Shown here: positions 6,901 through 33,327 of the stretch, in pieces | Layout: each line of letters begins with the position of its first letter | Numbering within the stretch: position 1 is the stretch's first letter | Origin: Craspedostauros australis | Lineage: Eukaryota; Bacillariophyta; Bacillariophyceae; Mastogloiales; Achnanthaceae | NCBI GenBank assembly: GCA_026770025.1 | Contig: JAMXDE010000042.1 | Coordinates: 1-64,000, forward strand | Direction: 5' to 3' | Length of the DNA stretch: 64,000 nt | Notes under the pieces: generated by a model | Told to the model about the DNA's origin: nothing | The model's input: the letters and a program-made list of their open reading frames with translations, nothing else | Databases searched by the model: none | Position numbers and translations under genes: made by a program

Positions 6901-6966
6901 CCGTAAGGAATTTTTTGTGTGGGCGTTTTCGTAAGTGGACTGGTGAGTCCACTTACGACCCCCTTG

Positions 6967-7095
6967 CATTTTTGGGCTTCGTAAGTGGACTCCTCAATCC
7001 AGTTACCGTAAGTGGACTGAGGAGTCCACTTACGACCACAAAAAAGTAGTCGAATTTCGCTCATCTGAGAAAAGACTACTTTGACCACTCCACCT
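6967..7095. repeat. Left terminal inverted repeat of the inner element
   Basis: Pairs with 11346-11476. It carries a perfect 26-nt hairpin with arms GTAAGTGGACT and AGTCCACTTAC at 7008-7033, an imperfect one at 6981-7006, and then an AT-rich block containing TCATCTGAGAAAAGACTACT. A further copy of the hairpin lies just outside, at 6931-6956. Confidence 0.8.
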
Positions 7096-7099
7096 CCTC

Positions 7100-10000
7100 C
7101 AAATTCCCTGTTTCTCTCGGTTGCGTTCTGGTTGTGATGCTGGCTTCGTATTTTGTCGCGTTGATTTACGTGTTGTCAACCGCATCCTTGGACTTCAATA
7201 GACTTGTAGACGGTAACACAACAACTTTGTGTGTAACCACAAGCTTTTTATCGTATTTGTTGTCCCCTTCAGTACCATCAACGTCTTTCATCATCAAATG
7301 TTGCTCTAATATAACACTGTTTAGGTTCCCACCAGCTTCAAGAAGCTTGTTTCATCGTGAGTACTTTGCCTGACATCGCATCCCTCATCGAGCACATAGC
7401 AGACACCACCAACCACAGCGACAATGACACCGACAGTTCATACGAAGACTGGGTTATTGATACCCCAATTGATCTTGACAGTGACAACAATGATGACATC
7501 CTTGGTGTCCACAACGAAAGCAATGTTGACGCCAACAACATCGATACTGGAGTCTACTCTGTTGGCAATGCCCATGTGGCCAACAATGCACCAGCAGCCA
7601 TGCTGATTGCTGCCATTGTTGCTGCCGCCAACATCATCATCCCCAATGATGCTCACACTAACACAACTACAACCAGCACATCTGCAACCGGCACATCCGG
7701 AACTGTTGAACAACCAGCTCTGACAGAACCAGAACGAGTGGCTTCTATGGGCCTGCAATGGAAGATGCTGGATCCCAACACAGTAGAGTTTGTGTTGCTG
7801 TGGGAAAGGTCTTGCTTGATGCAAAGGTGCACTACAAGCAGCTCACAAATGAACAAGACAACTCATTGAAATTGGAGGCCAACCTACGAGCCTCTGTTGC
7901 GCAATGGTCAGAGGATGACTGCTCAGCAGAAAGTCTGCACCTGTCTGCGCTCGTGCAACGGAAACAAGCGTCCAGCCAAGACGTTGCAAAACAAGCTCAG
8001 CCTCACCCTGAGCACCCATGGGAAGGCAAATTGCAAGCACTGCACAATGCCGCCAAACCGTTTTCAAGGGCTGTGCATGAAGCAGCTTTCAAAGGGCTTG
8101 GACATCCTCTACAAGACTGCAATGATGGCTGCTTCGACCAATGCAAACTATTCCATCCCATCTCCTAGCCAGACGACAAACAACTGCAGGATCCGCATGG
8201 CATCGCCCATGAGAAGGGAGTCAGTGTTGCCCAGGCTGCTGCAACCCAGCAGTCAAGTGATGCTGCAGCCAGCATCAACCGCAACTCTGGCAGGTATGCA
8301 ATTGCACCTAGTACATGCAGTTGTTGTGCCTCCCCTTCATTCACATCGTCCGCATTGATGTCTGCCACATCAGCTCCTCCTCCATCTACATCTACAACGC
8401 ACAGCATGAGATCATCTGCTTCTAGATGGACGAGGCCATCTCGACTCACACCAGCATCAAGGCGCACAAAGTCCGTCCACTGCCATCAAGGACAATCTTT
8501 GTCTGCTCGGCAGACTTGAACATCTACAACCTCAGTCGCCAGCACTTTCGCTCTCCCTTCATCTCCAGCTCAATCCTCCATATCTTCAAACTTCGGCATG
8601 CAACACACACCCCACTGAAGAAGCCACAGCTGCAGCATCTGTGCCCAAGACTTCAGGCTCGCCTGCCTCACAATCCACATCGTCCACATTCAACACACCA
8701 ATCCCTTGCACATCAGGCACGCCAGCTTCCGACACTGCAGCATCGAGCACATCTGCCTCTGGTCCACCCACTACTGCCACATCCGCGTCGAATGCAGGTG
8801 CTTCCAGTAGAGCAGAGGCTGCAGACACATCAGCATTCACTGACGCATGCCTACCAGATGATAGCACAGCTGTACGCAAAAATAGAGGTAGCTCAGAGCA
8901 CAGCAATCCTTCATCCCCATCCAATAATGCAGACTAAGCCACAGCAGCAACAAGGAAAAGAAACTCCAGTCTCCAGACTGATACACAAGGAGAACACAAC
9001 GAAAATGATGTGCTCAGCAATGGAAGTGATGGTACCACATCGCCCCAGTTGCTGGAACTGCAGCAACAGCTTGTAAAGATGGCTTTGCAGGCATGGTTCA
9101 TGAAGGCCTGGCATGGTAAATCCTATGCCTACACACGTCTGGGACATGCAAACGAGGAACTATTGATGAGAGCAGCCATGGACTGCGAACATGTGGGTGG
9201 AATCAACATGACCATCAAGGCCGCATTTCATGCTGGCCTCGTCCGGAACAGATCAAAACCTACGTACGTGCCTCCATCAATTTCCTGAGCATTGTGGGGG
9301 ATCCAACCAATGATGCACACAATGAGGTATTCATTGTAGAGATGAAGACGAGAACAACTCAGAACACAAAACTGAAAGGGGAGTTGCATCGGAAATGTGG
9401 AACATGTGCACAATTTCCCAACTAGCACCCATCTATATCTGAATGCACAAGATGAAACGTATCGCTCACTCTTCCGGGCAGATGAAGAAATGATTCAGGT
9501 GCTTCACCATGCATATGTGTCTATGGTGTGAGAGGAGCTCTGATTGCGATTGGTAAGTGCGCCTTGTGGCAAATGCAACACAGGTTCTCCATATCCGAAT
9601 GGCTTCACCTTGTTCCGTACCAACCTCATCTGTCTTCTCACACAACTGTGGATCCCTTTTCCACAACCACTGACTTACATGAACGCTCGATTGGGTGACA
9701 GGAGACAAAAAGGGAAACATCCTGTGCCTTGTAGGAGCGAGGTTTTCCCTTGGCCTCTTGCATCATTCTGAGAACGTTCCTGAAGATGCATCCCGTTTGC
9801 TCTTGGCGTTTGCCTTCCCCGAAATTCCAGAGGCAGATCAGCAATCATCCAAGACGCTCCATACAGAGTTTCTCAAGCTGAACCCAAAGACGAACAAGTT
9901 TTGCAGGGCAAGCAAGAACCTGCGGAACATCACAGGGGATGGTGTATTCCATCACAAGAAGATTTGACAAACCCACCACAACATTCTTGCTTTCCCAGTA

Positions 10001-11340
10001 CCTCCAGTGAAGACATTCCTCCCCTGAACTGCGCTGTATGGAAATGCCCATCCAGCAGCACAAAGCGTCCCCACTCATTGCAACAATCCATTGCATAGCA
10101 GTCGGTTGACAGCTACAAACCATGTTTGTGGCACTGCATTGATTGATTCACTACGCAACAGAGGCACACTCCGAGCGTGAAATTGAAGCAGGCCACACTG
10201 GCACCATCGAACAGTATCCCAGCAGAGTAAATCATGAGTGAAGCCTGAACAAGTTGATGGGATGAATCATTGCTCGGTTGCGCAAGTTGCTCGCAGTCAT
10301 GGCTGCAGACGAAAGAAAGGGCAAGAAACAAAAGGGAGGCACGGAGACAGCGACCCACAACACTGATATCATTCCAGCAGGCGGGTCAGCCGTCGAAGAT
10401 GGCGAGATGCAGCCACGGGGATGCCCCGAGGACCGTCAAAACAAAAAAGGAATGCTTGCCAGCCTATCCACGATGGATCCCAAGGAGGAGATCAAAACGA
10501 CCAAATGATTGAGGCAGGGTGAGCATGCAGCAAGGTACTGTCCAGACGTGAGGGGAACCTGTGTTGCCTGTTCAGTGTGTAGACACTGGATCTGTCCAGG
10601 ATGCAACTTGTATGCTTGCTGATACATCGAAGCTGACAAACAGGAGTGGCTCACGGCATGTGGCATTGCCCTAACCATGGCATTAAGAAACATCGCAAAA
10701 GGAGCGGACGCAATCATTGTTCACAACTTATGTCATCGAATTGTGCACAATGAGCCTGTCGAATGGGTAGAGAAGGTGAAGGCCCAGCATCAATGAGAGA
10801 AGCCACCACAATGAACGTCTTTATCAGCGCAAACACAGATGAGACAACCACCACAGCTACAAATGCAGTAACAGAGATAGCAAGAGAGATGAGCAACGAA
10901 AGCAATGACAACGCCGACGGTGAAGCCACCACTGCCAAGGCACATCAAACAAACACGGCCACAATAATTAGCTCAAGGGTGCCTGTCCTGAATCTGGAAG
11001 CAGCAATACAAGCTGCGCACAAGGCAGCCGCTGAAGCCAGGATCCAGAGCAGAGATATAGAGGTCATAACTCACGGTCTGCATGGAAGGAAGCAGAAACG
11101 ATGATATGCAATACAAATTATGTACACCAACGTATTCCACGCACAAGAGGCCCGCAAGGATGACTGTAGCATAACAGTAGCACAACAGTATCATAACAGT
11201 AGAAAAAGACAATATAATGCAGAGTAGAGTCAGTGTTGATTGCTGTTATTGTGTAAGGAAAGAACAGAGGAGGTGCGTCTCAATGCAAAATCGCTGTGTG
11301 CACAAGTTTACACGCAACAACACGAAGAATCCAAAAGATG
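7100..11340 (+). pseudogene. Decayed coding remnants inside the inner element
   Basis: Coding-like stretches change frame repeatedly and are low in complexity. At 7380-7870 there is an acidic Asp/Asn-rich stretch. At 7760-8165 there is a stretch containing LDAKVHYKQLTNEQDNSLKL and, later, AAKPFSRAVHEAAFKGLGHP. At 8640-8935 there is a Ser/Thr-rich stretch, and near 9075-9285 one containing WFMKAWHGKSYAYTRLGHA. None matches a family I can name. The region is best read as the remains of transposon genes; no promoter or complete frame is evident. Confidence 0.4.
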
Positions 11341-11345
11341 TGACA

Positions 11346-11476
11346 GGGTGGGGTGGTCGAAGTAGTCTTTTCTCAGATGAGCGAAATTCGACTACTTTTT
11401 TTGTGGTCGTAAGTGGACTCCTCAGTCCACTTACGGTAACTGGACTGAGGAGTCCACTTACGAAACAACAAAAATG
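11346..11476. repeat. Right terminal inverted repeat of the inner element
   Basis: Reverse complement of 6967-7095 with only a few differences. It contains a perfect hairpin at 11409-11434 (arms GTAAGTGGACT/AGTCCACTTAC, loop CCTC) and an imperfect one at about 11436-11461. Its outer end abuts another GTAAGTGGACT, which belongs to the outer element. Confidence 0.8.
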
Positions 11477-11742
11477 GTAAGTGGACTGGGACACCCGGCA
11501 AAATGGGTCGAATTAGTCAATCCGCGATGTGACTGACCCAGCCAATCAGAGCTTTCTGTAGTGGCGATGACAACTGTTTTCCCGAGAAGAAAGTTCTCGA
11601 TTCAAACTGGTGTTCTCTGGAAATCATTGTGGGTCACAGACGCCAATTTCATTTATGGTACACATGGGCAGAAACTCCGAGAATGACCCTCGCGAAGTTT
11701 GCCTTGGTTAAATCCCGAGCAATCGTGCCAACACCAAACCCT

Positions 11743-11935
11743 TGATTTATTTAGACGTCATTCGAATTAAATAGACGTCATTTGATTTATTTAGACGTCA
11801 TTAGAAATAAATAGACGTCATTTGATTTATTTAGACGTCATTTGATTTATTTAGACGTCATTAGAAATAAATAGTCGTCATTAGATATATTTAGACGTCA
11901 TTCGATTTATTTAGAAGTCATTCGATTTGTTTCAC
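11743..11935. repeat. Subterminal array of a 20-bp GACGTC repeat (left)
   Basis: About nine tandem units at an exact 20-bp period, consensus TTTGATTTATTTAGACGTCA. The AT-rich half varies (GATTTATTT, GAATTAAAT, GAAATAAAT, GATATATTT). GACGTC is kept in all but two units (GTCGTC, GAAGTC). The array flanks the outer element's gene block on its left; a second array in the same orientation flanks the right. Such arrays usually hold binding sites for the transposase or for host factors; that role is inferred. Confidence 0.9.
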
Positions 11936-12342
11936 GGGACACGCCACTTGGCTCAACTGACTAGATCGACTAAACAAGGTTCTCGCCACATCGGGATCGA
12001 CAAAGCGGGAACAGACCAACAGGCCACGAACGCAAAGGCGGGCCCGACGAGAGCAACACATGGCGCTCGCGCGTTCGTTTGGAATGGCCAAGCCATGCAA
12101 ACCACTTCACAACATCAAGTATCAACGTAGTGTAGCGAACGTGATACAATCGCAATACAAACCGATGCACGCATGTGTTACTTCCTACGTCGCTTTAGAC
12201 CAGTGTGATGGCATGCTCGTTTCGTCTGTTCTGCATTTGTCTTTGCAGCGTCAGTGAAGGTGTCTCCCTGTTCGAAGAGTAGTCGCATTGTGTTTCTCTG
12301 TGCATTGCTCACAAATCTTGCCGTCCACAAGAAGCCATCGCC
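11936..12342. other. Non-coding stretch before the first outer-element gene
   Basis: No convincing ORF or other feature is seen. It lies between the left GACGTC array and the ORF at 12343 and probably contains that gene's promoter. Confidence 0.4.
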
Positions 12343-12957
12343 ATGAGATTCCCCCCGCCCCACGCTTCCTCCTTCCAACAAAGCAAGGCTGCTGGCACAA
12401 GCAGCAGCAATGCCATTCCAATGGCTCCATCTCCCTCCTCCTCTTCCATTCTGCCTTGCAACAACTTCCTCGGCCACACCCCAGCAACCGCAACTGTCAG
12501 CCATCGCGCATCGCTCACCCCCACCCAGCACAACAGCAACCTCAACTTTGGCAATCGTCCGGCTCCTATCAACACGCATGCCAAGTTCAACAACGCGATG
12601 AAGGCGATTAGCCCTGCTTTCTTTGGTCTCCCTCATGGCCACTTTTTCGACCTGAAAAGGGGACACTTCAAGAGCGAAGAGGACAACAACGCCGAGCTCT
12701 CATTTCGCGCTGCTATTGCAGCGATTGACAAGCTGGTCAACATGAAATCGCTCATTGTGTTCTATCTTGATGGCTGCCTCTCAGGCATCTGTTTCATGTG
12801 CAGCCACATCTCATGGTTGTTGGCATACACTGCATTCCTGTTGTTCGTGCACCTCATCGTCGTCGCAAAAACTCTCGTGTTCGCAGTGTCCTCGGTGTGG
12901 GGGATGGCCAACACAGCGAAACTCACAGCAACGAACAACCACAACGCGAGCAATTGA
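12343..12957 (+). CDS. Transposon-associated protein of unknown function, possible membrane segments
   Basis: A 204-residue ORF starting MRFPPPHASSFQQSK. The first 75 residues are Ser/Pro/Asn-rich and probably disordered. Residues around 75-130 look folded (NAMKAISPAFFGLPHGHFF, then AIAAIDKLVNMKSL), and residues 135-190 are strongly hydrophobic with two to three possible membrane helices. I do not recognise the family. The hydrophobic tail may be an artefact of reading into an intron or a non-coding stretch, because the frame could leave the real gene near the GTCAACATG at about 12735. It is the first gene of the outer element and precedes a convergent gene at 13082-13609. Confidence 0.45.
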   Translation: MRFPPPHASSFQQSKAAGTSSSNAIPMAPSPSSSSILPCNNFLGHTPATATVSHRASLTPTQHNSNLNFGNRPAPINTHAKFNNAMKAISPAFFGLPHGHFFDLKRGHFKSEEDNNAELSFRAAIAAIDKLVNMKSLIVFYLDGCLSGICFMCSHISWLLAYTAFLLFVHLIVVAKTLVFAVSSVWGMANTAKLTATNNHNASN

Positions 12958-13081
12958 CGCAACCACCACAACAACGAGCCGAAATTCCATTCGTGGATAC
13001 ATCGAAAAATCACACAAGTCTAATAACACTAGGAAGAGTCTAATTATTGAAGAACTACTATTGCCTACTAGTCAGTGTTTA
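12958..13081. other. Short intergenic gap between convergent transposon genes
   Basis: 124 bp with no ORF; probably the shared 3' ends of the two converging genes. Confidence 0.4.
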
Positions 13082-13609
13082 TCATTTGTTGGTCATCGAT
13101 TGTGCTTGCTTGCGCTTGATTGCGAGATGATTCTTGAACTTATGCAGCTTGACTTGCTGGTAGATGTGCTGCTTGAACTGTTTTGCACCGAAATTAGCAT
13201 ACTCTGGCCGACTTGCCTGGAATTCAGATGGTGTCATGTGGAGGTGCTTGTTCATTTTGACATCAAAGGAAAGGAGATCTTTTGCAGGGGACAAGTGCAT
13301 CACTGGTCTGCCTTGGTTGTTGCGCCGTTTCTCAGGGTGAATGTGGCGATCGTGGTCCAATGCGCGCTCTTCGCGCGCAGAGCGTTCTCGCTGTTTGTCG
13401 AGTCGTGCGCGGAACGTTTTGAAGTATTTCTCGAAGACGGCCTGCGTCATCCCGTCCACTTTGAATTGCGGAAACATGCTGTAGTACTCCCATGCTGTAG
13501 CAGGTGCCAAATCCTCGGCATGGAATACACCTCCAACGTCAAAGTCATCTTTCATCATTGCGCTGGCTGCGCTGTTGCGCCACTTGAACTTTGGTGCATT
13601 TGCCGCCAT
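13082..13609 (-). CDS. Accessory transposon protein with duplicated W-x-S-A / RPEY-x-x-F motif
   Basis: A 175-residue, strongly basic protein starting MAANAPKFKWRNSAASAMM. It seems to contain two half-motifs of a family I recall as common in diatom genomes. The first is near residues 8-25 (KWRNSAASAMMKDDFDVG) followed by a YSMFPQFKVD/FEKYFKTFRARL block. The second is near residues 115-165 (MTPSEFQASRPEYANFGAKQF then a Lys-rich tail). Family function is unknown to me; the small size, charge and position inside a Harbinger-like element suggest a DNA- or protein-binding accessory factor for transposition. It is transcribed away from the gene at 14295. Confidence 0.65.
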   Translation of the reverse strand: MAANAPKFKWRNSAASAMMKDDFDVGGVFHAEDLAPATAWEYYSMFPQFKVDGMTQAVFEKYFKTFRARLDKQRERSAREERALDHDRHIHPEKRRNNQGRPVMHLSPAKDLLSFDVKMNKHLHMTPSEFQASRPEYANFGAKQFKQHIYQQVKLHKFKNHLAIKRKQAQSMTNK

Positions 13610-14294
13610 TGTTTCAATTGTGTGCCAACGATGATGATGGCAGCTTCTCTACTACTCAGCGTACACATCAAGAACGGCACGAGAAATGAACACACTCATA
13701 CACCCCGCCTTATATCTACTAGTACTGTCATTGCTTTCGCACGCTGGGCTGGTTGCTGCAGTTGTTGTTCGTTGAAATAGTTCCCACAGGCCTCTTCTGC
13801 TACACAAATCAGCATAGAACGGCCGGCTGGCGATGTTGTGACCGTTTTTACCGAGTCGTGTTTGAATTTCGTGCCGGACAGGCTACAAACTAGAGGCTCA
13901 CATGGTGCAACGTAGTGCGCACAACGTTCGAAAATGCAAGAGCTCTTCGCAAGCATCGGCACAGAATCAACCGCAATGTGTGCAACAAAGCAAGGCATCT
14001 ATCTACATACTATGCATCTGATTGTAGCATCATTGCTCTCTCCAGACTTTGCGGCTGCAGACAATTTGTATGTTGGCGCGCATCCATGCTTGAGACCGCG
14101 CTGATCATTCGTACGCCGCCAAACATCTGAAAGAGAAACAGACCGAGCTGCTCAATGGAGTAAGACAATGTTGTGTTGTGCGTATCAATATAGAGTAGTG
14201 CTTCTATGGCGTCGCATCAGGCAAATACAACGCCATCGCAACACTTGTGTTCAGACTCTTCGAACAACCACCATCGGCTCACAATCTACGAACA
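13610..14294. promoter_or_regulatory. Divergent intergenic region
   Basis: 685 bp between two divergent genes (minus-strand 13609 start and plus-strand 14295 start), so it probably holds both promoters. Short ORFs here have no coding character. No specific motif could be assigned. Confidence 0.4.
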
Positions 14295-15569
14295 ATGCAA
14301 ATGCAGACCGTCGACAATCTCCCAAGCACGAGTAAGTCTCTATCTCTGCAGATTGCCTCTGCTGTCGAGCGTTCAGGCAAGGCACGAAGCCAGATCAGGT
14401 TCGCGACAGACATCTGCGACAATCAGCCAGCTATGTTTGGTAAACGCGGTGATGAGCTTCGTGCCTTCTGCAGGCGGGCATTTGGAAATCTGAAGAAGCG
14501 CAGCATCAAAAGCTACTTCAAATTTCTCCGACAAAACGGCATTGCACCAGGCCCAGGATCTCTGGCTGAATTGGCACATCATCAGGGCGCCCATCCGTGT
14601 GTTGACGATTTGTGTGGCCGCGCGAGTGATCTCTCACTACAGCCACCCTTCGTTCGTTTTGCACCGACTCGTGTGTCATCACCTCACACACTGCATGTCC
14701 ACCCTGCCTATTTGCAGCCAACAGCACCAACAACACCAACAACAAACATGAAGCTCAGCTCTGATGGCCTCGCCAAACCACTTGGTATCTTTGGGAGTCC
14801 ACAAACCAAGCCTCCAAAGGCAGAGATCGAACTCCCAGATCGTGTTGGGTCTGCATCGAGCGCATCCACTGAGTCATCCATGAGCGACGAGGACAACAAC
14901 TCCTCCAGCGCTCGTCCAAGTGATGACACCTTCCATTCCTTGTTCGCGCGGAAGGAAGATGGAACAGCAACAAACCCATACACTGTTGCAATCAACCACC
15001 AGGCTCCAGAGCGCAATCGCGAATTCCTTGTTGATTTCATCAACGACATCGGTGTCACAAATGGCAACTTTGCAGGCTTTCATGTCCGTGTTCCTTGCGC
15101 CCTGCAGGATGTCAACTTGTGGAGTGCCGAGATCCCCACTCACATTCCTGGCATTGAGCATCGTTCTCTGATGATCCGCGGCCCAAGCGTGAACGCCTGG
15201 ATGTGTCGTGACGAGGCATTTTACTGCCACGACGAAGCCGCAGGAACAGCACAGACCGCCCTCTCTGCCACTGTCGCGAAAGTCCAAGCCTCTCCGGTTC
15301 GCAAGTTCTCTTTCTGGTTGTTGATCTTTCCGTCTGACATCAGCCTCGATCTCGCTTTGACCACCAAACACGGTGACAACGCGGTTGAGATCAACTGTTC
15401 TGTGCGTGACATGGTGGTCACCGAAGGTGATCAAGCGTTCACGATCCATGGTGCGGTTGCGTACTGGAAGCTCGTGTTGGCAGGTGGTCGTGTGACGCAC
15501 CAACCAGAGAAGAAGAACGTTGGCTTCTACTTGAGCAGATTGACCGCGAAAGGTGATGAAGCGGCTTAA
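14295..15569 (+). CDS. Transposon-associated protein, 424 aa, unknown function
   Basis: Starts at the first in-frame ATG (MQMQTVDNLPSTSKSL); the frame is open a little further upstream but without an ATG. N-terminal part (residues about 1-100) is basic and helix-prone, with FGKRGDELRAFCRRAFGNLKK and SIKSYFKFLRQNG, resembling a DNA-binding segment. Residues 100-235 are low-complexity, ending in an acidic Ser-rich stretch (SSMSDEDNNSSS). The C-terminal 190 residues look globular (RNREFLVDFINDIGVTNGNF; later KFSFWLLIFPSDISLDLAL; AYWKLVLAGGRVTH). I know no family for it. It sits between the basic accessory gene and the KOW gene, in the same block as the transposase, so a structural or regulatory role in the element is plausible. 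Confidence 0.6.
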   Translation: MQMQTVDNLPSTSKSLSLQIASAVERSGKARSQIRFATDICDNQPAMFGKRGDELRAFCRRAFGNLKKRSIKSYFKFLRQNGIAPGPGSLAELAHHQGAHPCVDDLCGRASDLSLQPPFVRFAPTRVSSPHTLHVHPAYLQPTAPTTPTTNMKLSSDGLAKPLGIFGSPQTKPPKAEIELPDRVGSASSASTESSMSDEDNNSSSARPSDDTFHSLFARKEDGTATNPYTVAINHQAPERNREFLVDFINDIGVTNGNFAGFHVRVPCALQDVNLWSAEIPTHIPGIEHRSLMIRGPSVNAWMCRDEAFYCHDEAAGTAQTALSATVAKVQASPVRKFSFWLLIFPSDISLDLALTTKHGDNAVEINCSVRDMVVTEGDQAFTIHGAVAYWKLVLAGGRVTHQPEKKNVGFYLSRLTAKGDEAA

Positions 15570-15927
15570 CCTGGCGAAGTCACGACACGGACAGAACAAT
15601 CACGGCAACTCGCAGCATAACACAAAAACTATTTAGGTACCTTGTACAACGCACACCAACAAGTCTTGCGCCTTCTCGTTTCCCTCTTCGTTATTGTCAC
15701 AGTCGCGCAATGATAAAACCTGTCGACCTCCACGAAAACGAACAAACGGTATTGGGCTCTACTTAACATGTACATGATTGAGACGTGTGGTGCTTTGCAG
15801 GATAAGTAACTTGACTAGAGCATGTGGCTTGTGAATGCCTTATGTTGGGCTACAGTCGTGTTTCGTTGCAGACACTGTGACACTAAATTGATGGGTCTGC
15901 ATGTGTGTCTGTTGGTGCGATTGGAGA
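15570..15927. other. Convergent intergenic gap
   Basis: 358 bp between the 3' ends of two convergent genes. No ORF or distinct motif is seen; likely the two 3' UTRs and polyadenylation signals. Confidence 0.4.
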
Positions 15928-16347
15928 CTACTTCATCGCCCCGTCATGCTTGATCGGCAAATCACTCTTGTCAACGGTGCGATACTCCGCGTCATCAAGA
16001 GCATGGAGTTTTTCGCCTTCTGTCGTCAACTTTTGGAGGAACAAGCTGTTGATGTGGGGAATGTCATGATCAGAAAACACGTTGCACTCGCAAAGCGCAC
16101 GAGCTAGTTTGTCCATCATTTTATCAATGTCTGGATGCTGTTGCAACACAGCTTCGGCAAGATTGGCGGGTGCCTTGCGGCGCTTCACGTTGTCCTTGTT
16201 CAGCTTGGTCTCCTTCAGTGATCCATCATCCATCTTGACGATCACAGGACGCTGACACTTTGTCGGCTTCTTGTCCACATTCACCCAGCCAATGTGACCC
16301 TTGTACTTTCCTCCAGTGATGGCGATGAGCTTTCCCTTCGTGCCCAT
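15928..16347 (-). CDS. Small KOW-domain protein encoded by the transposon
   Basis: A 139-residue protein starting MGTKGKLIAITGGKYKGH. Residues about 3-30 match the KOW signature (hydrophobic strand, GGKYKG, then a strand GWVNV). A second strand-rich segment (PVIVKMDDGSLKETKL) completes a small SH3-like barrel. Known family roles: KOW motifs bind RNA, ribosomes or the transcription machinery (NusG/SPT5, ribosomal L24/L26). The rest (residues 60-139) is helical and includes DIDKMMDKLARALCECNVF. Similar short KOW proteins are, to my recollection, repeated many times in diatom genomes. Its location beside the transposase suggests it belongs to the element rather than to the host. Confidence 0.75.
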   Translation of the reverse strand: MGTKGKLIAITGGKYKGHIGWVNVDKKPTKCQRPVIVKMDDGSLKETKLNKDNVKRRKAPANLAEAVLQQHPDIDKMMDKLARALCECNVFSDHDIPHINSLFLQKLTTEGEKLHALDDAEYRTVDKSDLPIKHDGAMK

Positions 16348-16791
16348 GGTGATGCTGCAATTGATGCTGCTGTTGTTGTTGTGGTGTTGGTGTTGGTGTT
16401 GTGATCTGATGAGTGATGTTGTGGGCTTGTCGTTGGATGTGTTGGTTGATCAATCAGCGAACATCGGAAACGCCAGTACCAGCGCTCGCTGTGTTCTCCT
16501 TTCTGCCGTGGTGCTTCACGACAACGCAACACGAAACTGTTTCGTCATTTTCGCGTGTCTGGGTCCAGTCGCCAAATCACGACCATCATTCACATCGACA
16601 AACAAAGCACTCTCATTTTGCGTGAAAATACTTCTTGGTTCTGAGCACATGCCATCACTATTCGCTAACTGGGCCTCGATCCATGACTGTTGTGTCGCCA
16701 AGTCGTTGTGCCGTGTTTGGTGAAGTGCTTGTTGCTGCAGGATTGGTCTCTTCGCGGACGAGATCGTCCCTTCTTGTGACAGACACGTTGC
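16348..16791. promoter_or_regulatory. Divergent promoter region between KOW gene and transposase
   Basis: 444 bp between two divergent starts. It begins with GTTGTT/GTTGGT-type repeats (16366-16400) next to the KOW start. No coding ORF was supported. Shared regulation of the two genes is possible. Confidence 0.4.
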
Positions 16792-16856
16792 ATGAAGGAA
16801 CAACAACAACTGCATCATCAATCACAACATCAGCATCAGCATCTCATCATCAATCA

Positions 16857-16891
<35 letters not shown>

Positions 16892-17817
16892 ACAACATCA
16901 GCCGTACCATGTTCCTGCGTCCTCATGATGTGCTGATGACAGGCCTCCAGTTGGTTGGGGTTCACCCATCAGCTCGGCAATCGAACGACACTGTTGCTGC
17001 GCTTTTTCGTCAGCACTACGGTTCCAGTCCTCTCGACATCGCCGAGATCTGGTTTGATCTGTGTCACACAGAGATTCCTGAGGCCAACCTCAACACAAAA
17101 GATAAAACGATGAAGGGCTTTACATTCTTCATGATTGCGCACTACTTTCTGTGGCTTTATCCCAAAAACTCCGGCGTCATTGCGTCTCGGTTCTGTGTGT
17201 GTGAGCGATACGCACGAGGAGAACACATCTGGCGATGGGTGAAAAAAATTGCCGCGCTTCGGACGAAAAAGATCGTGTGGGATTCGTCTCTGGACCACCC
17301 CGACTCCTCTGTTTTCGCCATCACGGTTGATGGCACTGATTTCCGCACTTGGGAAAAAAAGCACCCGACTCTGCCAATTGATCGCGCGCAGTACTCACAC
17401 AAGTTTAACCACGGCGCGGTCAAGTACGAGATCGCGCTTTCTGTCTTCTCTTCCAAATGCGTGTGGATCAGTGGGCCATTTCCTGGTGGCACCCACGACC
17501 GGGCTATTTTCCGTCATGGTCTCATGGACAAACTGGCAACAGGGAAACTTGCCATTGCCGATCGTGGATACCAAACCAGCGTGGCGGCTCAACGCGAACA
17601 ACTGTCACTTCCAAGCGGTACCGACTCGTGGCGGCTCGCCAAGTTCAAAAGTCGGGCACGATGTCGTCACGAAAGCTTCAACGGGCGGATCAAGAAATTC
17701 AAGTCGATGGACGACACTTTTCGCCATGGGTACGAGTGTCACATGCATGCTTTCGAAGCAGTGTGTGTCATCATACAGTACCAAATGGACAACGGATCAG
17801 AACTCTTTGCAGTGTGA
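16792..17817 (+). CDS. PIF/Harbinger-type DDE transposase
   Basis: A 341-residue protein matching the DDE_Tnp_4 (Harbinger nuclease) pattern. Candidate catalytic acids are D180 in TVDGTDF, D236 in GGTHDRAIFR, D257 in IADRGYQ, and E294 in RHESFNGRIKKF. An N-terminal helical region (residues 60-175) would be the DNA-binding or dimer part. The first 38 residues are a Gln/His/Asn tract from a (CAACAG)n run, so translation may instead start at M40. Known role: cuts and pastes elements with short terminal inverted repeats, usually with a Myb-like partner. No Myb/SANT protein is evident in this block, and the accessory genes differ. The frame is intact with no stop, so the element may be recently active. 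Confidence 0.85.
16853..16900. repeat. (CAACAG)n microsatellite in the transposase 5' end
   Basis: About six CAACAG units followed by CAACAACAA. In the transposase frame it reads as an Asn/Ser-rich tract, so length changes would be tolerated. Confidence 0.8.
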
Positions 17818-18044
17818 CCACGAACTCTTTCTACAGTCTGTTTCACATGTATACAGTAGTCACCACATTAAAACGTAGACAACAACACTCCAACTCCACA
17901 CTCGTCTCTGTTGTGATCTGTCCAGAGCAGGGCAGAGCTGAGGCGAGCCACCATTTCGTGGTCTGTTTGTGTGACCAAGTGCACTTGATTAGTTCGATCA
18001 CTTCCCGACCTTGTCTTCTTGGGTCACGAGTGACAAAATTGTGC
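17818..18044. other. Downstream region of the transposase
   Basis: No gene seen; probably the transposase 3' UTR up to the right GACGTC array. Confidence 0.4.
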
Positions 18045-18215
18045 GATTTATTTATCCGTCATTAGATATATTTAGACGTCATTTGATTTATTTAGACGTC
18101 ATTAGATATATTTAGACGTCACTCGATTTAAATAGCCCTCATTCGAATTAAATAGACGTCATTTGATTTATTTAGACGTCATTAGAAATAAATAGTCGTC
18201 ATTCGACTTATTTAG
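18045..18215. repeat. Subterminal array of the 20-bp GACGTC repeat (right)
   Basis: About eight units at a 20-bp period with the same consensus and the same orientation as 11743-11935. Two units have lost the site (ATCCGTC, GCCCTC). The two arrays bracket the five-gene block. Confidence 0.9.
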
Positions 18216-18522
18216 ATTTAGGCGCTGATTGTCATCGGTATTGACGGGACTCGGTCATTTGGGCCAGCGGCATCGATGCCTCGTTGTATTTGTCCGAAGT
18301 AGGGCCAACAGGATGTCTCACTAAGTTCTTCGAAAGGAGGTTCGTTCTTCGCCAATCGCGGAATGTCAATTGCGGCTTTCTTGTGTCTGGTGACAAAATC
18401 GGTGTTGGATGTCAAATTAGTCGTACTAGTCGAGTTTCCGTCTCCGCTGCTTTTTGCCGGGTGTCCCTGAGGAATCCACTTAGCCGTAAGTGGACTCCTC
18501 AGTCCCGAAAAATTCCTTACGG
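18216..18522. repeat. Right terminal region of the outer transposon
   Basis: No gene. Contains GGGTGTCCC and a GTAAGTGGACT half-hairpin (18486-18496), and ends with AAAAATTCCTTACGG, the inverted copy of the left end. Confidence 0.7.
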
Positions 18523-18592
18523 ATATCGGAGATACAGAGTTAGGAGGTCTATTTCAAATGATTGGTCGACTCGCTCACCGGGACCATATTCA

Positions 18593-19129
18593 TCACAGAT
18601 TCCGACTTGTATTGTACGTATGGATCGTGAGATAGTCGATGTAGTCTAATATTCCAAGATACGTTCGTGCAACGTCCGCAAGGTCGCCAAGGTCCGTGTT
18701 ATTGGCTGGCGACTTTTCTCTCGCTGTCTGTGTCCTTGTGTTGTGTCTGTTGCGGAGGTTTGTGATCCTTGTGCGCGGAATCCTTCCCTTCCTTCGAATG
18801 GTGATGTGTTCGTGTCCGTGAGTTTGTGTCTGTGTCGTCCACGCTTCCTCTGCTGGTGTCAGTGTCGGTGTTCGTACTTTTGGTGGTGCGCCGCCTTCCA
18901 CGTCCAACGTACATGGGTACAGTATCGTGGGGGCAGAAGGAGCAATTCCACGAAGTATTCGATGCGGATCGTTCCTACTTTTGACTGCGGCGATGTTGTC
19001 CTGCGTGGCGCGCGAAAACAAACACGCCATGGCATCACGAGCCTTCGCTTGACTTCCGTCTCTGTTGGGTTCACAGACTTTCCGCGAGAGCGCTCTTCCC
19101 CACTTCACCGCATTCGTGCAGCCACTCAA
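18593..19129 (-). CDS. Hypothetical 178-aa ORF upstream of the truncated gene (copy A)
   Basis: An open frame on the minus strand, without an ATG at its 5' end (the first in-frame start is TTG). It contains NRDGSQAKARDAMACLFSRA and ends near LADVARTYLGILDYIDYL. It is intact here and at 53731-54267, but a single-base difference (GTCGTCC versus GTCATC) breaks it in units B and C. It resembles no family I know. It may be the remainder of an exon of a divergently transcribed gene, or simply a chance ORF in the promoter region. Confidence 0.3.
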   Translation of the reverse strand: MSGCTNAVKWGRALSRKVCEPNRDGSQAKARDAMACLFSRATQDNIAAVKSRNDPHRILRGIAPSAPTILYPCTLDVEGGAPPKVRTPTLTPAEEAWTTQTQTHGHEHITIRRKGRIPRTRITNLRNRHNTRTQTAREKSPANNTDLGDLADVARTYLGILDYIDYLTIHTYNTSRNL

Positions 19130-20904: not shown

Positions 20905-20934
20905 ATGCGCAACGACAATTCGCACGATTCCACA

Positions 20935-21999
20935 ATGGCCGACAGCAGCGCCTTGTTCGCGGAGCTGCTGTCCGATCCTGATGATCCCAACTTTTCTGCC
21001 ACGAAGGCCCTCGTGCGGCATCTGAGGCAGGAGGCCGATCTGTCGCAGCAAAAGGCCGAACGCCTCAACGAGCAGGCACGCATGCTGTCGGTGCAATTCG
21101 GTGTCACGCAGGCCGCGCAGGATCAGTACGGTGAGTCAGACAGGGTTGTGGCAAGCAAAGCTCTGTCTTTGCTACACATTGAAATTAGCGGTTGTCGTCT
21201 TGTCTCATTTGTTTGATCTCTCATCGTACCGCAAACTCCTTTATCACTCATCACCATTTGCAACAATGAAACAACCATGGTCAACGCGTGATGTGCGATG
21301 ATATCCACCCCAACATTCCGGACTGCAGCCATCGATCCAACCCAACTGCCACCCCTCGATGAGAATGGCGTTCCCAAATACAAGGGCAAGAAACGGGGTC
21401 GCAAACCCAAGGCCAGGAAGCACAAGATCAATCCCAATCGACGCAAGCGTCAACAAACGGCGTACACACTGTTCGTGCAGGAGACGTATCCAACAGTCAA
21501 GGCGCAGAATCCAGAATTGCCCAGCAATCAGCTGATTCGCATCGTCGCTGGACAATGGAAGACGGGAGTGGATGCCGAACAGAAGCAGGCATGGAAATTG
21601 CGCGCCTTGGCCATGCGGACGGACACGACCGCGGAGGAGCATGGTGCAGAAGGAATGGCTGCCATCGACATCGAAGTTGACGAGATGGCAGGTGATGGCA
21701 ACGGCAATGGTAACGCAAACGGCAACGACGACGTTGAGGAAGAGGAGCAGGAAGACGAAGGCAACGAAGGTGAGGAGATGGCGGATGCACGAATAGAAGA
21801 CGGCGCTGATCATTCTCATCATCAGAATCAGGAAAGCGCCGAGGACCATGATGCTGACGATCAGACCAATGACGGAGTATTGGTAGATCAGAATATGGGC
21901 GATGGTGATGATGATGGTCACGATGCTGACGAAGACGGTGAAGAGCAGGTGGAAGACGACGGCGGCGAAAAGTGGATATTAACATCTCCGGCTATGTAA
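20935..21999 (+). CDS. HMG-box protein with acidic C-terminus, one intron (copy A)
   Basis: Exons 20935-21130 and 21329-21999; the 198-nt intron has GTGAGT and CTGCAG borders and splices in phase 1 (…QDQY|AIDPTQLPPL). The product is 288 residues (298 if the upstream ATG at 20905 is used, which copies B and C lack). Residues 1-65 form a coiled-coil-like helix (VRHLRQEADLSQQKAERLNE). A Lys/Arg-rich hook (KGKKRGRKPKARK) precedes an HMG box (QQTAYTLFVQETYPTVKAQN … GQWKTGVDAEQKQAWKLRA). The last about 120 residues are acidic, with His runs. Known role of the family: non-sequence-specific DNA bending and chromatin binding. The nucleus is the expected location. Confidence 0.8.
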
Positions 22000-22781
22000 C
22001 CAACTAATGCATCGCAACCCAAAGCTACACAATGCTACGCACTCGCTCTCATCATCCTGGGATCTGCCGCCACAGTGTAAAAATGGCATGCATGATTGCG
22101 GTTTCCTTCGTGATACGGAGAGAATCAACTGGATATGTGGTTCTGAGCAGTTTAGGTTTCATGGGGCTTATGCAACGCTCTGACTCTTCTCGTACTTGTA
22201 TGACGTGCGTTGAATCAGACATGCAATTTGTGCAATACAAATGGGATGGATCAGCCCAAATGCGCGTCACTGGCCGACGAAGGCTGCTCGATGACGGCTT
22301 GTCTCACCTTACCTCTTGGAAATATGAATCAGCCAAGGGACATCGACGGCACCACTCGATCACTTGCTACGCGTGCTGGAGATGGTTGACACCACACTCG
22401 ACGAACCAATTGCTCTGAGCGCAACGTCGTATCGGCACAGCCTGGATGCAGCTGCAAAATCTTTGCCAGCATTGCGTCGCAATGATCCCATCGATGGCAC
22501 CGTGATTAATTTGAGGATGGGAGACTTGTTGTTATGATTGCTTTGCGTTGACGCGTTGTCGCGGCATGCTGGAGACGGCTGCCAACAACATGATGGTCTG
22601 TCACGCAGACGATGATGATGATGATGTCGGCTGGTCGGTCAAGTGGTAAGTCTGTTGGCACCCCCTGCTTGGTCGTTGGCGAGTCTTGATGGACGTGCCG
22701 AGCGAGCAGATCACTTCGAGCAATCATCTCAGTTGGCTCAGCTCCAAACCAACACCAACATCGACGTCATCGACGTCACCA
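22000..22781 (+). other. Possible additional exons or gene remnant (copy A)
   Basis: After the HMG gene the plus strand holds one coding-like stretch near 22345-22540 (LLRVLEMVDTTLDEPIALSA, then SYRHSLDAAAKSLPALRRND) and another at 22568-22647 (MLETAANNMMVCHADDDDDD, ending at a GTAAGT donor). These may be exons of a separate small gene or of an alternative HMG transcript. In B and C the first is shifted by one base, so it is probably decaying. No domain recognised. Confidence 0.3.
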
Positions 22782-24320
22782 TCATGCCGACGAGGACAAG
22801 CACATCTGCCGCGGACTTGACAGTTGACACAGACGGAACATCTTCTTGAAGATGTTGCCCGTGCCAGCCACATGCGAGAAGCTGCGGTGCTGCCGGAACA
22901 GTTCCAGCGTGGAATTTGTGATGGAAATCAACTCCTGCGGGCTGACGAAGGGTCCATGTCGGATGTTGGGACGATCAAAGCAGCAGCTGCTCGACATGAG
23001 ATCCGGCACGTCATGCACCACGCGCTTGCCACCCAAGTCTGCGTCGTTGTACCTCTTCCTGTGCGTCTCCAAAGTCACCTGCGACACATCCGACGCAATC
23101 GAAATGGGTTGGCCACGATGCGGAATGATGACGGACGAAGAGAATCGACCAGTAGGTGCTGGCTGCAGTGCATGCCGCACCAAGTAGTGCACGTCGCGCA
23201 TGTGAGGCAGCTCGTCGGCCTCGGTGTAGTAGACGAAATCAAATTCATCCTGGCTGTACACATTCTGCCGCAGCAGCTCCTTTGCCGTGACCGATGTGCC
23301 GTACGTCAAGCGATCGAACGACCGCAGATCCTTGATGAGCTGCACGTCGTACAGATACCGATTGAGACCGCTGTTTTGCGCGACGTAGGCGTAGCCGGAT
23401 GGATCTCCCACGAATACGACAACATTTGGGAACACGGCCGTCACCGTCTTGACCGTGATGTGGAGGAACAGCTGGCTGCGTTGCTATTCCGGGCCGTCGA
23501 GCTTGACCGCGTAGTACGCTATGATCGCCAAGATGTGTCCGTTGCGTTGCTTCGAGGCGTTGTTGTAGAAGTCGTTGCGCTCGTAGTCACCCTGCATGCC
23601 TTCCAACAGCTGGATCGTATCGCCCAGCAGCTCCGCGCTCCTGCCTGTGATCTTTTCGTAGTACGACAGATGATGCACGAAGAAATCGAACATGTCGACG
23701 GCTTACAGATTCCAGCTTCTCGCGCTCATTGCGAAGTGACCATACTCTAGGTTTATGTTCTCCGCTTCGTGAAGATGCTGCAGGCTGATGCGGCCGTTGC
23801 TGAGCAAGCGGTTGACGGTGACGAGCCACGCGGCCGAATAGCCATCGCTGGGCTGTTCTCGCGTCATGCCAGCAAACCGTTGCGTGCTGTCGTCCGCTGT
23901 GGATGACGCAACAGGAAACGTTCTCATGTCGACGATCCCGTCTTCGTTGTCTTCGTATGACACCCCACGACCCTGCAGCAGATCATCCCTGCTGCACCCT
24001 GCCATGAACCGCTGCGGTCTGTGGCCTGTCGAGAAGTCGTGGATCGCGTCGAACGGTGGCATCTTCAGCACGCCCGACAGTCCTGACTGAGTGGCTTCCG
24101 GCCATTGGGAGCATGTGGCTGTGGCTGTGGCTGCGTTACCATCCCCCTTGAACGATGTGATGACATCAGGGACATCGAAGAGGTTGGATATGAAGCGGAG
24201 CGATGAGATCTGCGCAAGGCTGAGGAAGATGGCGATGGCAAGGACCGTCCGAAGGATCGGACTGACCGACCAAGGGGTCGATGATGCTGATGCTGATACG
24301 ACTACTGGTGACCTCCTCAT
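22782..24320 (-). pseudogene. Type II membrane glycosyltransferase-like gene with two in-frame stops (copy A)
   Basis: The frame starts at ATG 24320 (MRRSPVVVSASASS). A signal anchor follows at residues about 19-42 (PILRTVLAIAIFLSLAQI). Downstream are a stem and a catalytic-looking region with KTVTAVFPNVVVFVGD, FDFVYYTEADELPHMRDVHY, and FSSSVIIPHRGQPISI. The YTEADE motif resembles the acidic metal-binding site of Golgi glycosyltransferases; exact family is not certain. The single frame is interrupted by TAA at 23703-23705 and TAG near 23487, with no frame change. The TAA lies inside GTAAGC and could be removed by a 66-nt in-frame intron; no similar solution was found for the TAG. Confidence 0.6.
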
Positions 24321-25345
24321 GTTGGCATCGTCGTATCCGCGCACGCTCTTTCAGCAGTCCAGAGAGGTCTAATCACAGGCTTGTGACTGCATGTCTGTTC
24401 CGATGTGTTGCCTTGTTTGGCGCCAATTTTCGGAGACTCATTTTGTTGACTTTCGTTTGGTTTCTTTGTCGATGAGACGGCTGAAGGTGAGCCTGGTCGT
24501 TATCGGGGTGAGATACACAGCAAATCAAATACATCATACCACTTTCTTCGGAAATCGTTCTCTTCGTCACCGACATCGTCGCAGAGCACATGTTGGGAGG
24601 ATCATCGACGCAACGCTCAGAAGGAGCCTTTGGAGGTCGCTGGTGGACACGATTAGAGTGTACAGTAAAGAGGTGTATTCGCATGGCATTGCCCTCCGAC
24701 CTCCCTCTTCCGCTACCCGTACTGGACCCATCGCCTTCTGAGGGTGCGACCTAGCATGCGATCATAGGAGGGGATGTGTCTGCCTTGGCTTCTGTTTCTC
24801 TGTTTGCATCGAAGACTCATGCCTCGATGTGTCGTCGGTAGTCCGCGCTCTGTCCATCACGCCTTCCGAGGGTGCGACCTTGCATGCGATCATAGGAGCG
24901 GATGAGTACCACCTTCTTGGCTATTCCGTTTGTGTGCGTGATAGTAAAGAACATCCGCGAAGCTAGAAGGCTGATTGCAGGCACGCGCGGCAGACATCAT
25001 CGAAAAAATAATATGTGCGGAACAAGTACATCCGGGTGCTGCGAGCAAGATACTCAACAGATACGAACACGTGGCAACGTCCAACCAACAGCTTTTCATG
25101 TTGGACTTTGGCGGCGCTGGTGCGTCCAACCTTCCAGCAACGGGGAGAAGCACGAGCCATCACAAACGGCCATGTTGTGTGCAACAGAAAAACAAAGAGA
25201 GAGAGAGAGGACGTGGTTGCTGTTCCAAACAACAAAGCGAGAGCATGTCAACAACAACAACGAAGCCCGAGACGAAACAACATCAAATCAACTCCCAATC
25301 CAGCCATTGATCACTCCGCCAAACAATTTGCATACTCCATCAAGC
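24321..25345. promoter_or_regulatory. Divergent region between the glycosyltransferase-like and LRR genes (copy A)
   Basis: About 1 kb shared by two divergent genes. Contains a direct repeat of GGGTGCGACC/GCATGCGATCATAGGAG at about 24742 and 24876. The LRR frame is open from an ATG at 24902, but this extension is Arg/Gln/Asn-rich, includes a GAGAGA tract, and lacks family features, so it is more likely 5' UTR. Confidence 0.4.
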
Positions 25346-27832: not shown

Positions 27833-28690
27833 CTCGCTCCAATTTTCCCAGCACAACTGGCCAAGCGTATGGACTGTTTAGGGTTAATTGGAAATGATGC
27901 ACTGTTGAGATGTAGCATCAAGAGCAGTAACCAAAGTCAGTGGCCTTCTTGTTTGAGACTGAGCACTGAACTAGTTGATTTGAACAAGACTCATCACCCA
28001 CAAACCGTGACAGCTGGTATTAGCGCAACGCTAAATCTCTAACAATAGCGACACCCGTCAACCAATCAGAAATCTCCACTTTTCTTCCTTTTTCCGTTCC
28101 GAACGGAAATTTTGGTCGAAAATCCGTTGTGTCAAATTTGTGTCACATTTCGCGTCGCAAGAACCGTTTTCCCGTCAATCACAGATTTCGGATGTCGCGG
28201 AAATGAATTTCTTGCCAAGATGAACCTCTCTGCCCAATCAGGACAGACTTCGGTCTTGGGTGCGACACGTGCGAATCTTGCCATGACCTTCTCAAGTGAA
28301 TACGATCAATCGTGTGATCGTACTACTAGCAACATCGTGAGAAGACGTAATTCACAACACGGGGTATCGCGGTGTTTTGTTCATTGACTTTTGCAAATCT
28401 TCTTCACGCAGTAACACGCACATTTGTCGTGTTTTCTCCGTGTTAATTTCATCTGCAATTGCATGAGATCATGTCATGCCTCTCTCATGCTCACAGTTCT
28501 CAAGAAATCATCTTGTGAGCTTGCCCGCATTCTACTACTCATACGAATAATACTCAATAACAACACTCATCCTCACCCCAACAACGATCTGATCACTCTA
28601 CGTTTCGGTGCGGAATCCCATCCCTGATTTCATTCTAACAGCTGGTATTGTCCATTCTTTCGAATCATTCTGACAGGCTTGGGTGCTCAG
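27833..28690. other. Region after LRR gene A with a 616-bp insertion
   Basis: The first 180 bp are shared with B and C. Then ACAGCTGGTATT occurs at 28010-28021 and again at 28638-28649, bracketing a unique insertion that B and C lack. The only ORF (28112-28387, 91 codons) has no family resemblance. Confidence 0.6.
28022..28649. mobile_element. Small insertion with 12-bp direct-repeat flanks
   Basis: The 12-bp duplication ACAGCTGGTATT marks target-site duplication. Its left edge carries a perfect hairpin TTAGCGCAACGCTAA (28020-28034). There are no matching inverted termini and no poly-A tail at the right edge, so the class (MITE, truncated retroelement, other) is undecided. Confidence 0.5.
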
Positions 28691-29800: not shown

Positions 29801-30910
29801 CTTGGCTCCCACCATCAACAACCATTCGTCAGATATGGTGGGGTGCAGCCTCTTGCAGACTGTCTCTCTGGCACAGACCTCGCAGATTTTGTCTTGAGTT
29901 GATACTTCACACATCTTGTGTGGGTGGGTTGGCAATTGGTTGACTTGTTGATGGCACCCATCATGGCTGAAGTCACATGGTGGGTGTGCTGCCATCCCCC
30001 CTCTCCCCCCAATTCCTGCCCGCCAACTTTTCCTCTGCACGGACACCTTCCCAGTCGTCCCTGAGCCTCACGCTTTGTGGGAGGTTTGGCCCTGCCCATA
30101 TGGATGCATCTTGTTCATCCATAGGTGTTGGTGTGGGCTGTGCATGGAACACACAGGCCACATCCAATGAGCCGATCTGACACCAAATTGTGGCCTTCAT
30201 GCAGGGGCCTGCCGCGGCCCCAAATCAACCGCTCTCGCAGCCTCCGCTCACCCACTCACCAAGGGTTGCATCATGGTGACAGCAATGTGCTTGGATTTCT
30301 CGCGAGACTGCTGGTTGGTGTGGCGCTGGGGGTGCCGTTGAACAGCCATTGTGGAGGTTTTGTTTTGCCATGCCATTGTTGTGTTGTTGTCTGAAGTTTC
30401 GCATTTTCAACCTGTCTCACATGTTGGGGGATGTAGAGATTCCCTCAAATTGTACCGAATGTACGAAAGAATAATGACACAATACACTTCGAGAGCATCA
30501 ATACGACTCGACCATTCCGTGGAGGCGAAACATACCTGAAGATGTTTCACATTGTGCTGTGATTTGTGAATCATGACATCGTATCCAGTTTCGTGACGTA
30601 GATGACGGAGTGGCGAAATACAGGATAGAATGGAAATAAACACGGACTCGCTGCTTCTCCCAACAAAGGCCAACACGCCGCAACTAGTGCTATCGTGGAT
30701 GGACTGGTGGATCATCTCATCGGAACACCCCAGAAAGAGACCACACAAGTCAAAACGGGAACAAACTCGCTGAAACAAAGAACAGCAAAAGGTTAAGTTG
30801 GATCGATGTAGTCGGAAGCACAAGGCTGAAACCCGAAAAAGATCGAAAAATATGCACAACCGTCAGTCCATAACCCTGATTTTAGGAATAGGAGCAACCT
30901 CAAAACCATC

Positions 30911-31066
30911 ATGGATATCTGTTTGTTTATGAACTACAAGGATTACGCATATGTCCTTGGTTTGGATATCGGAGATACAGAGTTAGGAGGTCTATTTCAA
31001 ATGATTGGTCGACTCGCTAACCGGCATCATATTCATCACAGATTCCGACTTGCATCGTACGTATGA
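30911..31066 (+). CDS. Short conserved ORF or last exon spanning S3/S1 (copy A/B junction)
   Basis: 51 codons from ATG (MDICLFMNYKDYAYVLGLDI), ending with RLASYV. Just upstream (30885) is TGATTTTAG, a good splice acceptor in frame, so it may be a last exon. Copies at 41619-41774 and 53606-53761 keep the frame. Several differences are at third codon positions (GTC/GTG/GTT; TTG/CTA), which hints at coding. The same frame in copy 0 is split by the transposon at 6901. No family recognised. Confidence 0.35.
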   Translation: MDICLFMNYKDYAYVLGLDIGDTELGGLFQMIGRLANRHHIHHRFRLASYV

Positions 31067-31571: not shown

Positions 31572-31818
31572 GCCAGAGCATAGTACTTTACTTTAGATCG
31601 TACGAACAGACTGAAGGGATAGCAGTAAGCTCAACAAGGAGGCACAATCAGAGCAGAGCATCGCGCCATCGTCCGAATGTAACTCCCGTTTCTCTCTTGC
31701 TCTCTTACGATCTATTACATCAGCAGTCGTCGACTCGTACCACTACTAATAGTCGTATCCGCATTAGTGCTGTGCTGTGATACGCTCTGCACCAGAGTAC
31801 GAGCAGAGACGCAGCAAG

Positions 31819-33131: not shown

Positions 33132-33327
33132 TGCAGTGGAGGCACAGATCGCAGCAGCAAGCACTGGTTATCTTGTAATTATCTCTGGGTCAAAGGGATA
33201 CGAGTCGCACCTTGTCCATTATATCCGTGCTCCGGCGACTGCATCAAGTACAACAACGAACAACCATGTTGAGATAGGATAGGTTGCTCCACCCTAGTAC
33301 GCACACGCAAGTACTCACGATTCCACA

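Follow-up and report, generated by a model that had tools for sequence, protein, structure and literature searches.

A five-gene Harbinger-type DNA transposon with CWG target-site duplications and paired subterminal arrays in the diatom Craspedostauros australis

We present here a five-gene DNA transposon from the diatom Craspedostauros australis, found in the first 64,000 nucleotides of contig JAMXDE010000042.1 (C40 in our numbering; GenBank assembly GCA_026770025.1, forward strand), a stretch that we call the window throughout. The element spans window positions 11489-18466 (6978 bp). It is a real cut-and-paste element with several genes, and we hold this to be far more certain than the link, made below, between one of its proteins (P2) and the tandem arrays near its ends. 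The reading that we favour as a whole, with a probability of about 0.5, is that of a five-gene DDE transposon of the PHIS (PIF/Harbinger) superfamily that moves by cut and paste and has a NuwaI-type CWG target-site duplication, in which the N-terminal domain of P2 would read the arrays. An earlier note on this DNA had already described a Harbinger-type element with genes beyond the usual two, and this was confirmed: the accessory families are present in many copies and spread with the element.

Borders and target-site duplication

We searched the genome (74.8 Mb in 90 contigs) and fetched 20 other stretches for comparison with the window. Both ends could be read in 20 copies, the window's own included, and in 17 of them the same CWG trinucleotide stands on either side (13 CTG, 4 CAG). 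Copy L015 was taken as CTG, one changed base in its left tip allowing two readings, and L010 was not counted since its right end lies outside its stretch. The uninterrupted insertion site, carrying a single CTG, was found at 13 other places in the genome (11 exact, two with one mismatch); uninterrupted sites are this numerous because the insertion lies close to the right end of a second repeat, the outer element described below. Directly after the CWG, the terminal inverted repeat (TIR) reads GGACACC, or GGGACACC if the shared G is counted. A similar TIR was seen in a related family (family B, see below), on the left side of one copy and on the right side of a second, and also at the right end of one family C copy, and the GGTCGAATTAGTC box next to the left TIR recurs in family B near the left end of L029 and the right end of L040. 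The borders proposed in the earlier note, 11477 and 18522, were not borne out, the true ends being 11489 and 18466, and the CCGTAAGG ends that it had assigned to the five-gene element are in fact those of the outer element (6902-18520).

Gene content and conservation

The five genes alternate in orientation along the element (P0 forward, P1 reverse, P2 forward, KOW-like reverse, transposase forward; Table 1), all of them conserved, in agreement with the convergent and divergent pairs noted earlier; their starts were chosen by comparison with family B. The transposase is indeed of the DDE_Tnp_4 type, matching Pfam PF13359 at E 5e-12 and 46 bits (cut-off 24.8), and all four aligned transposases match this family. 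Three acidic residues (D141, D197 and E255), invariant in four aligned sequences that are 37-77% identical to that of the window, are candidates for the DDE triad. When the window is compared with the full-length copy L018, all five genes have a dN/dS of 0.07-0.22; comparisons between families give 0.07-0.48 where dS could be computed, dS being saturated in six pairs.

The remaining proteins are less readily classified. P2 is divided into a basic N-terminal part (residues 14-95, pI 10.7) and an acidic C-terminal part (221-424, pI 5.7); it had no match in Pfam, and its full profile had none in the PDB up to E 1. The N-terminal part searched against the PDB matched only an antigen-receptor chain (E 0.02), which we set aside as chance. 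The window's P1 had no Pfam match either, and its assignment as a recognisable Myb/SANT protein was rejected, since it had no support in Pfam and in the PDB matched nothing but a chain named mt-LAF7, and that weakly (E 0.5). The doubled motif that the earlier note had seen in this basic protein proved weak (hhalign E 0.0012, probability 19%), and we do not regard its halves as a clear repeat. Its KOW-domain claim holds as a similarity that falls below the Pfam cut-off: the KOW-like protein scores 16.7 bits against KOW5_SPT5 (cut-off 27, E 0.005), and three of four members of its family match Pfam KOW at E up to 0.1; a match to ribosomal L24 has E 0.12. P0, from its hydrophobic stretch (Kyte-Doolittle 19-residue maximum 2.46), is probably a membrane protein.

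Protein searches of the same genome, in one of which 118 of 393 candidates were scored so that counts are lower bounds, placed the element in a set of diverged families. The gene order and orientation of family A (the window) recur in family B (transposase about 72% identical) and family C (about 62%), a four-gene order being common to all three. In families E (L031, transposase 38% identical) and F (L038, 36%), the transposase is accompanied by P1 and by a P2-like gene that runs across two frames, which brings to five (A, B, C, E and F) the diverged families in which P1, P2 and transposase occur together. A further family, D, comprises about 20 copies with a transposase about 41% identical and a P1-like neighbour, most of them with in-frame stops; at one locus inspected (L032) and from these stops, it may either contain introns or be an old dead family that was amplified, and it was left out of the comparisons.

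After loci had been merged by hand (119 transposase rows to 116, 67 P1 to 62, 21 KOW to 20, 14 P0 to 13, and the P2 rows to 22), a transposase match was found within 7 kb at 18 of the 22 P2 loci, 19 of the 20 KOW loci, 46 of the 62 P1 loci and 9 of the 13 P0 loci, where chance coverage is at most 2.2%. Such strong linkage rejects the idea, raised in the earlier note as what would overturn its account, that the accessory families are host genes apart from the transposase. The four P2 loci without a nearby transposase are C13:1606444 (a split copy), C1:532595, C1:1136440 and C53:396935. A viral origin was likewise rejected: when viral contigs were scanned, neither the transposase alignment nor the window's P2 and P1 turned up a confirmed relative, single proteins detecting close relatives only.

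The extra genes might still be passengers, without a function in transposition, of an ordinary Harbinger-type element. Transposons are known to pick up genes, and in the own-genome protein searches KOW was not found in families E and F, nor P0 in family C, P0 occurring in families A and B plus two loci assigned to no family (C53 and C66). We consider such passengers improbable, however, given that dN/dS is well below 1 for all five genes, that the order is fixed in three families, and that P1 and a P2-like gene are kept in families with just 36-38% transposase identity.

Short derivatives and paired arrays

A 1001-base query from the left end gave at least 75 match rows in the genome, 40 of 65 candidates having been scored. 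At least 17 short copies (1.54-1.76 kb) are deletion derivatives that keep the ends and hold no whole gene. The 17 that were fetched lack the same stretch, with one shared junction (Table 1), and look like descendants of one deletion. Having no whole gene, they should therefore need help in trans, and we infer that they were moved in this way, with the transposase cutting at the 15-bp repeats. One short derivative is nested in the transposase gene of another copy, for which the window's own gene is the empty site.

Some 250 bp inward from each tip of the element lies a tandem array of 20-bp units, all in one orientation, which bears out the matched GACGTC arrays of the earlier note. GACGTC is present in both 500-bp ends of nine copies (the window included) and in neither end of 11 (L018 included), such that both ends are of one array type in 20 of 20 copies. 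In L018, L022 and L023 the second-type unit is CGATTTATTTATCCGTCATT or shifts thereof, CGTCA being kept in both unit types, and in the window TCCGTC persists in one unit at the edge of the right array. None of the 17 derivatives without genes has lost its array units at either end; by a strict pattern a single right-end unit remains in L016, L019, L025 and L028, and a single left-end unit in L028. The subterminal repeats of one family B and one family C locus are other sequences.

Trees from the inner sequence and from the termini conflict. In the former (about 11990-12448 and 17773-18040), the window and L018 are sisters (100/100) and a grouping of the window with the A1 derivatives is rejected (p 2.4e-6). 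In the latter (about 11488-11940 and 18045-18466), the window groups with the A1 derivatives (100/100) and a grouping with L018 is rejected at p 5e-53, both p-values being optimistic because the groups were named after the distances had been seen. L009, a duplicate of the window's locus, was excluded from the trees, L013 and L014 do not differ in any column used, and region limits in the distance and tree comparisons are numbered one base low. The conflict therefore points to an exchange of both termini between lineages, and distances outside the array show exchange at each end separately.

The termini are not the only part in which the window and L018 differ strongly. When the two copies were compared in 250-bp intervals, the four end intervals differed by 10-27% and the interior by 0.8-7.6%, outside one block over the 5' region and N-terminal part of P2 (Table 1). 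This block is 11.4% diverged (7.6-18.7% per interval) versus 3.4% in the remaining interior (141 of 1240 versus 162 of 4737 differing sites; Fisher p 5e-25, again optimistic, the block limits having been chosen after the profile was viewed). Codons with an amino-acid change in P2 number 14 in residues 51-100 and 11 in 101-150, the stop being counted once among these, and three in 251-400.

Table 1. Positions in the window of the five-gene element, its parts and the surrounding outer element.
Feature	Position	Strand	Remarks
Left target-site duplication, CTG	11486..11488		13 uninterrupted sites with a single CTG
Left TIR, GGACACCCGGCAAAA	11489..11503	+	15 bp, perfect
GGTCGAATTAGTC box	11506..11518	+	possible end box; short BLAST matches, E 0.02
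Left subterminal array	11744..11932	+	20-bp units GATTTATTTAGACGTCATTA
P0	12343..12957	+	204 aa; hydrophobic segment
Stretch missing from 17 fetched non-autonomous derivatives	12449..17772		one shared junction
P1	13082..13609	-	175 aa; pI 10.0; two weakly similar W-x-S-A modules
Diverged block, P2 5' region and N-terminal part	13738..14987		window versus L018
P2	14295..15569	+	424 aa; basic N-part, acidic conserved C-part
KOW-like protein	15928..16347	-	139 aa
Transposase, DDE_Tnp_4	16909..17817	+	302 aa; candidate acidic residues kept in four families
Right subterminal array	18045..18216	+	20-bp units GATTTATTTAGACGTCATTA; orientation as left
Right TIR	18452..18466	-	15 bp, perfect
Right target-site duplication, CTG	18467..18469		uninterrupted sites with a single CTG
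Outer element	6902..18520		CGTAAGGAATTTTT ends; duplication GGATATC; about 4.6 kb without the nested element

A possible role of P2 in end recognition

Ping/Pong and Harbinger3 require a DNA-binding partner in addition to the transposase (PMC2836001). Since ordinary Harbingers need a separate DNA-binding partner, a division of labour is to be expected, and here P1 and P2 together would perhaps be the DNA-binding partners in place of the single Myb-like one. At either end, the 20-bp subterminal arrays would be read by the basic N-terminal domain of P2; the acidic C-terminal part of this protein, which is conserved, would contact the transposase or P1. As a result, array type, end sequence and P2 N-terminal part would change together, and the short derivatives could keep moving only if they acquired both ends of the type in use. 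The KOW-like protein and P0 would be optional accessories, the former perhaps contacting nucleic acid or transcription, the latter perhaps a membrane anchor. That P2 reads the arrays is the simplest account because the paired ends switch and the P2 N-terminal part lies inside the sole strongly diverged internal block; we hold this link at about even odds, given that only one full-length copy of the second type is available. The N-terminal part itself is shared across families, aligning between A-C and E/F at E 4e-8 with 95% probability.

A more general proposal, on which we would sooner bet against than for, is that end recognition is a separate, exchangeable module, in which the P2 N-terminal domain, both arrays and the tips switch specificity as a set and derivatives follow by replacing both ends. 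If true, an arms race of autonomous and parasitic copies would be readable in one genome. The element offers a natural experiment on how a transposon alters the sequence that it recognises yet stays mobile, and on how non-autonomous copies keep up.

Several observations weigh against a role of P2 in reading the ends, or against single parts of our interpretation. The left and right arrays point the same way, which is unusual for end-recognition sites, as these should mirror each other. The link between P2 and the arrays comes from a single full-length copy that offers a contrast, L018; its P2 gene is interrupted by an in-frame TGA, and its left end differs from the A2 derivatives by as much as about 19%. 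The right tip of L015 is intermediate. Synonymous changes are frequent across P2 residues 1-250 (7-11 codons per 50), and the block may for this reason reflect simple recombination or a low-complexity region that evolves fast. The P2 C-terminal parts of families A-C and E/F align weakly (E 0.023, probability 2%), L036 being left out of the P2 alignment for its frame breaks, and no Myb/SANT match was found in Pfam at E up to 0.1 among six P1 and ten P2 rows, although a diverged fold is possible. As to the borders, L009 (with a shifted right end), L019 and L028 have no matching duplication, one copy on C13 has CAG at its left and CTG at its presumed right end, and the left end of family C was looked for and not found.

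Two other explanations of the arrays deserve consideration, and we regard both as unlikely. The first is anti-silencing of the VANC kind, in which P2 (or P1) would bind the arrays and keep the chromatin of the element open, array and protein co-evolving as in the Arabidopsis VANDAL transposons. The motifs targeted by VANC are short and arrayed in one orientation, often as non-coding tandem repeats, with units that diverge together, and VANC itself has conserved and highly variable regions (PMC5735166). Here too the arrays at both ends share one orientation, their unit differs throughout both arrays between subfamilies, and P2 pairs a variable N-terminal part with a nearly constant C-terminal part. 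However, anti-silencing would need one array only, whereas here paired arrays lie about 250 bp from the ends and were exchanged together, even in derivatives without genes.

The second has the arrays bound by a protein of the host, such as a bZIP factor recognising CGTCA, that drives the genes of the element; P2 would be unconnected and its block a chance recombination tract. The motif CGTCA, which we take to be a bZIP-type site, is common to both unit types, and a single recombination event could account for the P2 block, where synonymous changes are frequent as well. Yet array units are retained on both sides in the 17 gene-less derivatives, which would have no use for a promoter array, and if the binding factor were a conserved host protein, the two-base change seen throughout both arrays would go unexplained. 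Recognition of the arrays by P2 remains the reading that we prefer.

Relation to known transposons

The element has the features of the PHIS superfamily, namely a DDE_Tnp_4 transposase, conserved acidic residues, and TIRs with a short target-site duplication. PIF/Harbinger elements in the narrow sense duplicate TWA, whereas CTG or CAG is found in the 17 matching copies here. A CWG duplication is the hallmark of NuwaI, described from 16 animal genomes and mostly with two open reading frames (PMC4482050). Our element resembles NuwaI in its PHIS-type DDE transposase, in a CWG duplication confirmed by empty sites, in having a partner protein beside the transposase and perhaps in a G-rich TIR start (the published NuwaI TIR begins GGG). 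Published NuwaI elements differ, being from animals and about 4.5 kb long with two open reading frames and a Myb/SANT partner; ours is from a diatom, 7 kb long with five genes and subterminal arrays, and no Myb/SANT was detected. We do not file it as NuwaI because of this undetected partner, and the likeness is drawn from descriptions rather than from a transposase tree. An insertion of the NuwaI type, reported from animals in the 2015 survey, is now found in a diatom genome, although Repbase may already hold a diatom relative, Harbinger4_TP.

The earlier note's candidate for an undescribed system has to be qualified, as CWG-type PHIS elements and Harbingers with extra genes have both been published (PMC4482050, PMC12730594). 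Harbinger4_TP and its neighbours, the sister group of the TET+ Puccinia families, lie near Nuwa and have 3-bp duplications (PMC12730594). We read the suffix TP as a hint at the diatom Thalassiosira pseudonana, and Harbinger4_TP, known to us by name and description, may already hold some of the genes found here. HarbingerS (with SET) and TET+ PHISTA also carry genes beyond the usual two, the latter with a third protein without Myb/SANT (PMC12730594). Their extra proteins are SET or TET epigenetic enzymes, and the parts of their descriptions available to us mention no KOW-like, membrane-like or P2-like protein. VANDAL elements share with ours an element-encoded protein and same-orientation tandem arrays that diverge together (PMC5735166). 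They differ in belonging to the plant MuDR lineage, with a MuDR-type transposase where ours is DDE_Tnp_4, in having arrays in introns or other non-coding sequence that are not described there as an end pair, and in a function in the loss of DNA methylation (PMC5735166). Among the literature titles and abstracts covered, which lie outside Repbase and most subscription journals, we noticed no Harbinger element with a KOW, P2-like or membrane protein. The element thus adds conserved protein families without assigned domains (P1, P2 and P0) that spread with transposons.

The outer element and other features of the window

The repeat into which the five-gene element inserted (Table 1) has 26-27-bp palindromes near both ends and GGATATC on each flank, and at least two uninterrupted paralogous sites for it lie within this window. 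The palindromes at 11409-11461 are part of it and not of the inner element. Across the genome, its palindrome occurs at 52 forward and 50 reverse places with up to two mismatches.

L009 (C29:709756-719755) matches window positions 11301-18697 with 94.9% identity and is the same locus duplicated with its flanks; its genes carry several frame breaks, and it is either a duplicate that has decayed or a second haplotype that was assembled poorly. At C13:1602663-1642924 (L010, L020), a family A copy is apparently split by about 25 kb of other sequence, and a short derivative is nested in its transposase gene.

Elsewhere, window positions 4710-54804 contain large near-identical duplications (95-97%) with 72-bp repeat arrays, for example 20908-28017 with 44010-51125 and 29801-37382 with 40509-48088. 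The silicon-transporter family PF03842 gave 88 match rows in the genome, on many contigs and about 32 of them near full length, and one match, below the cut-off, in 14 control genomes, which by itself makes a diatom host very likely. Silicon transporters also occur in some other eukaryotes, and as diatoms usually have a handful, 88 rows seem far more than usual.

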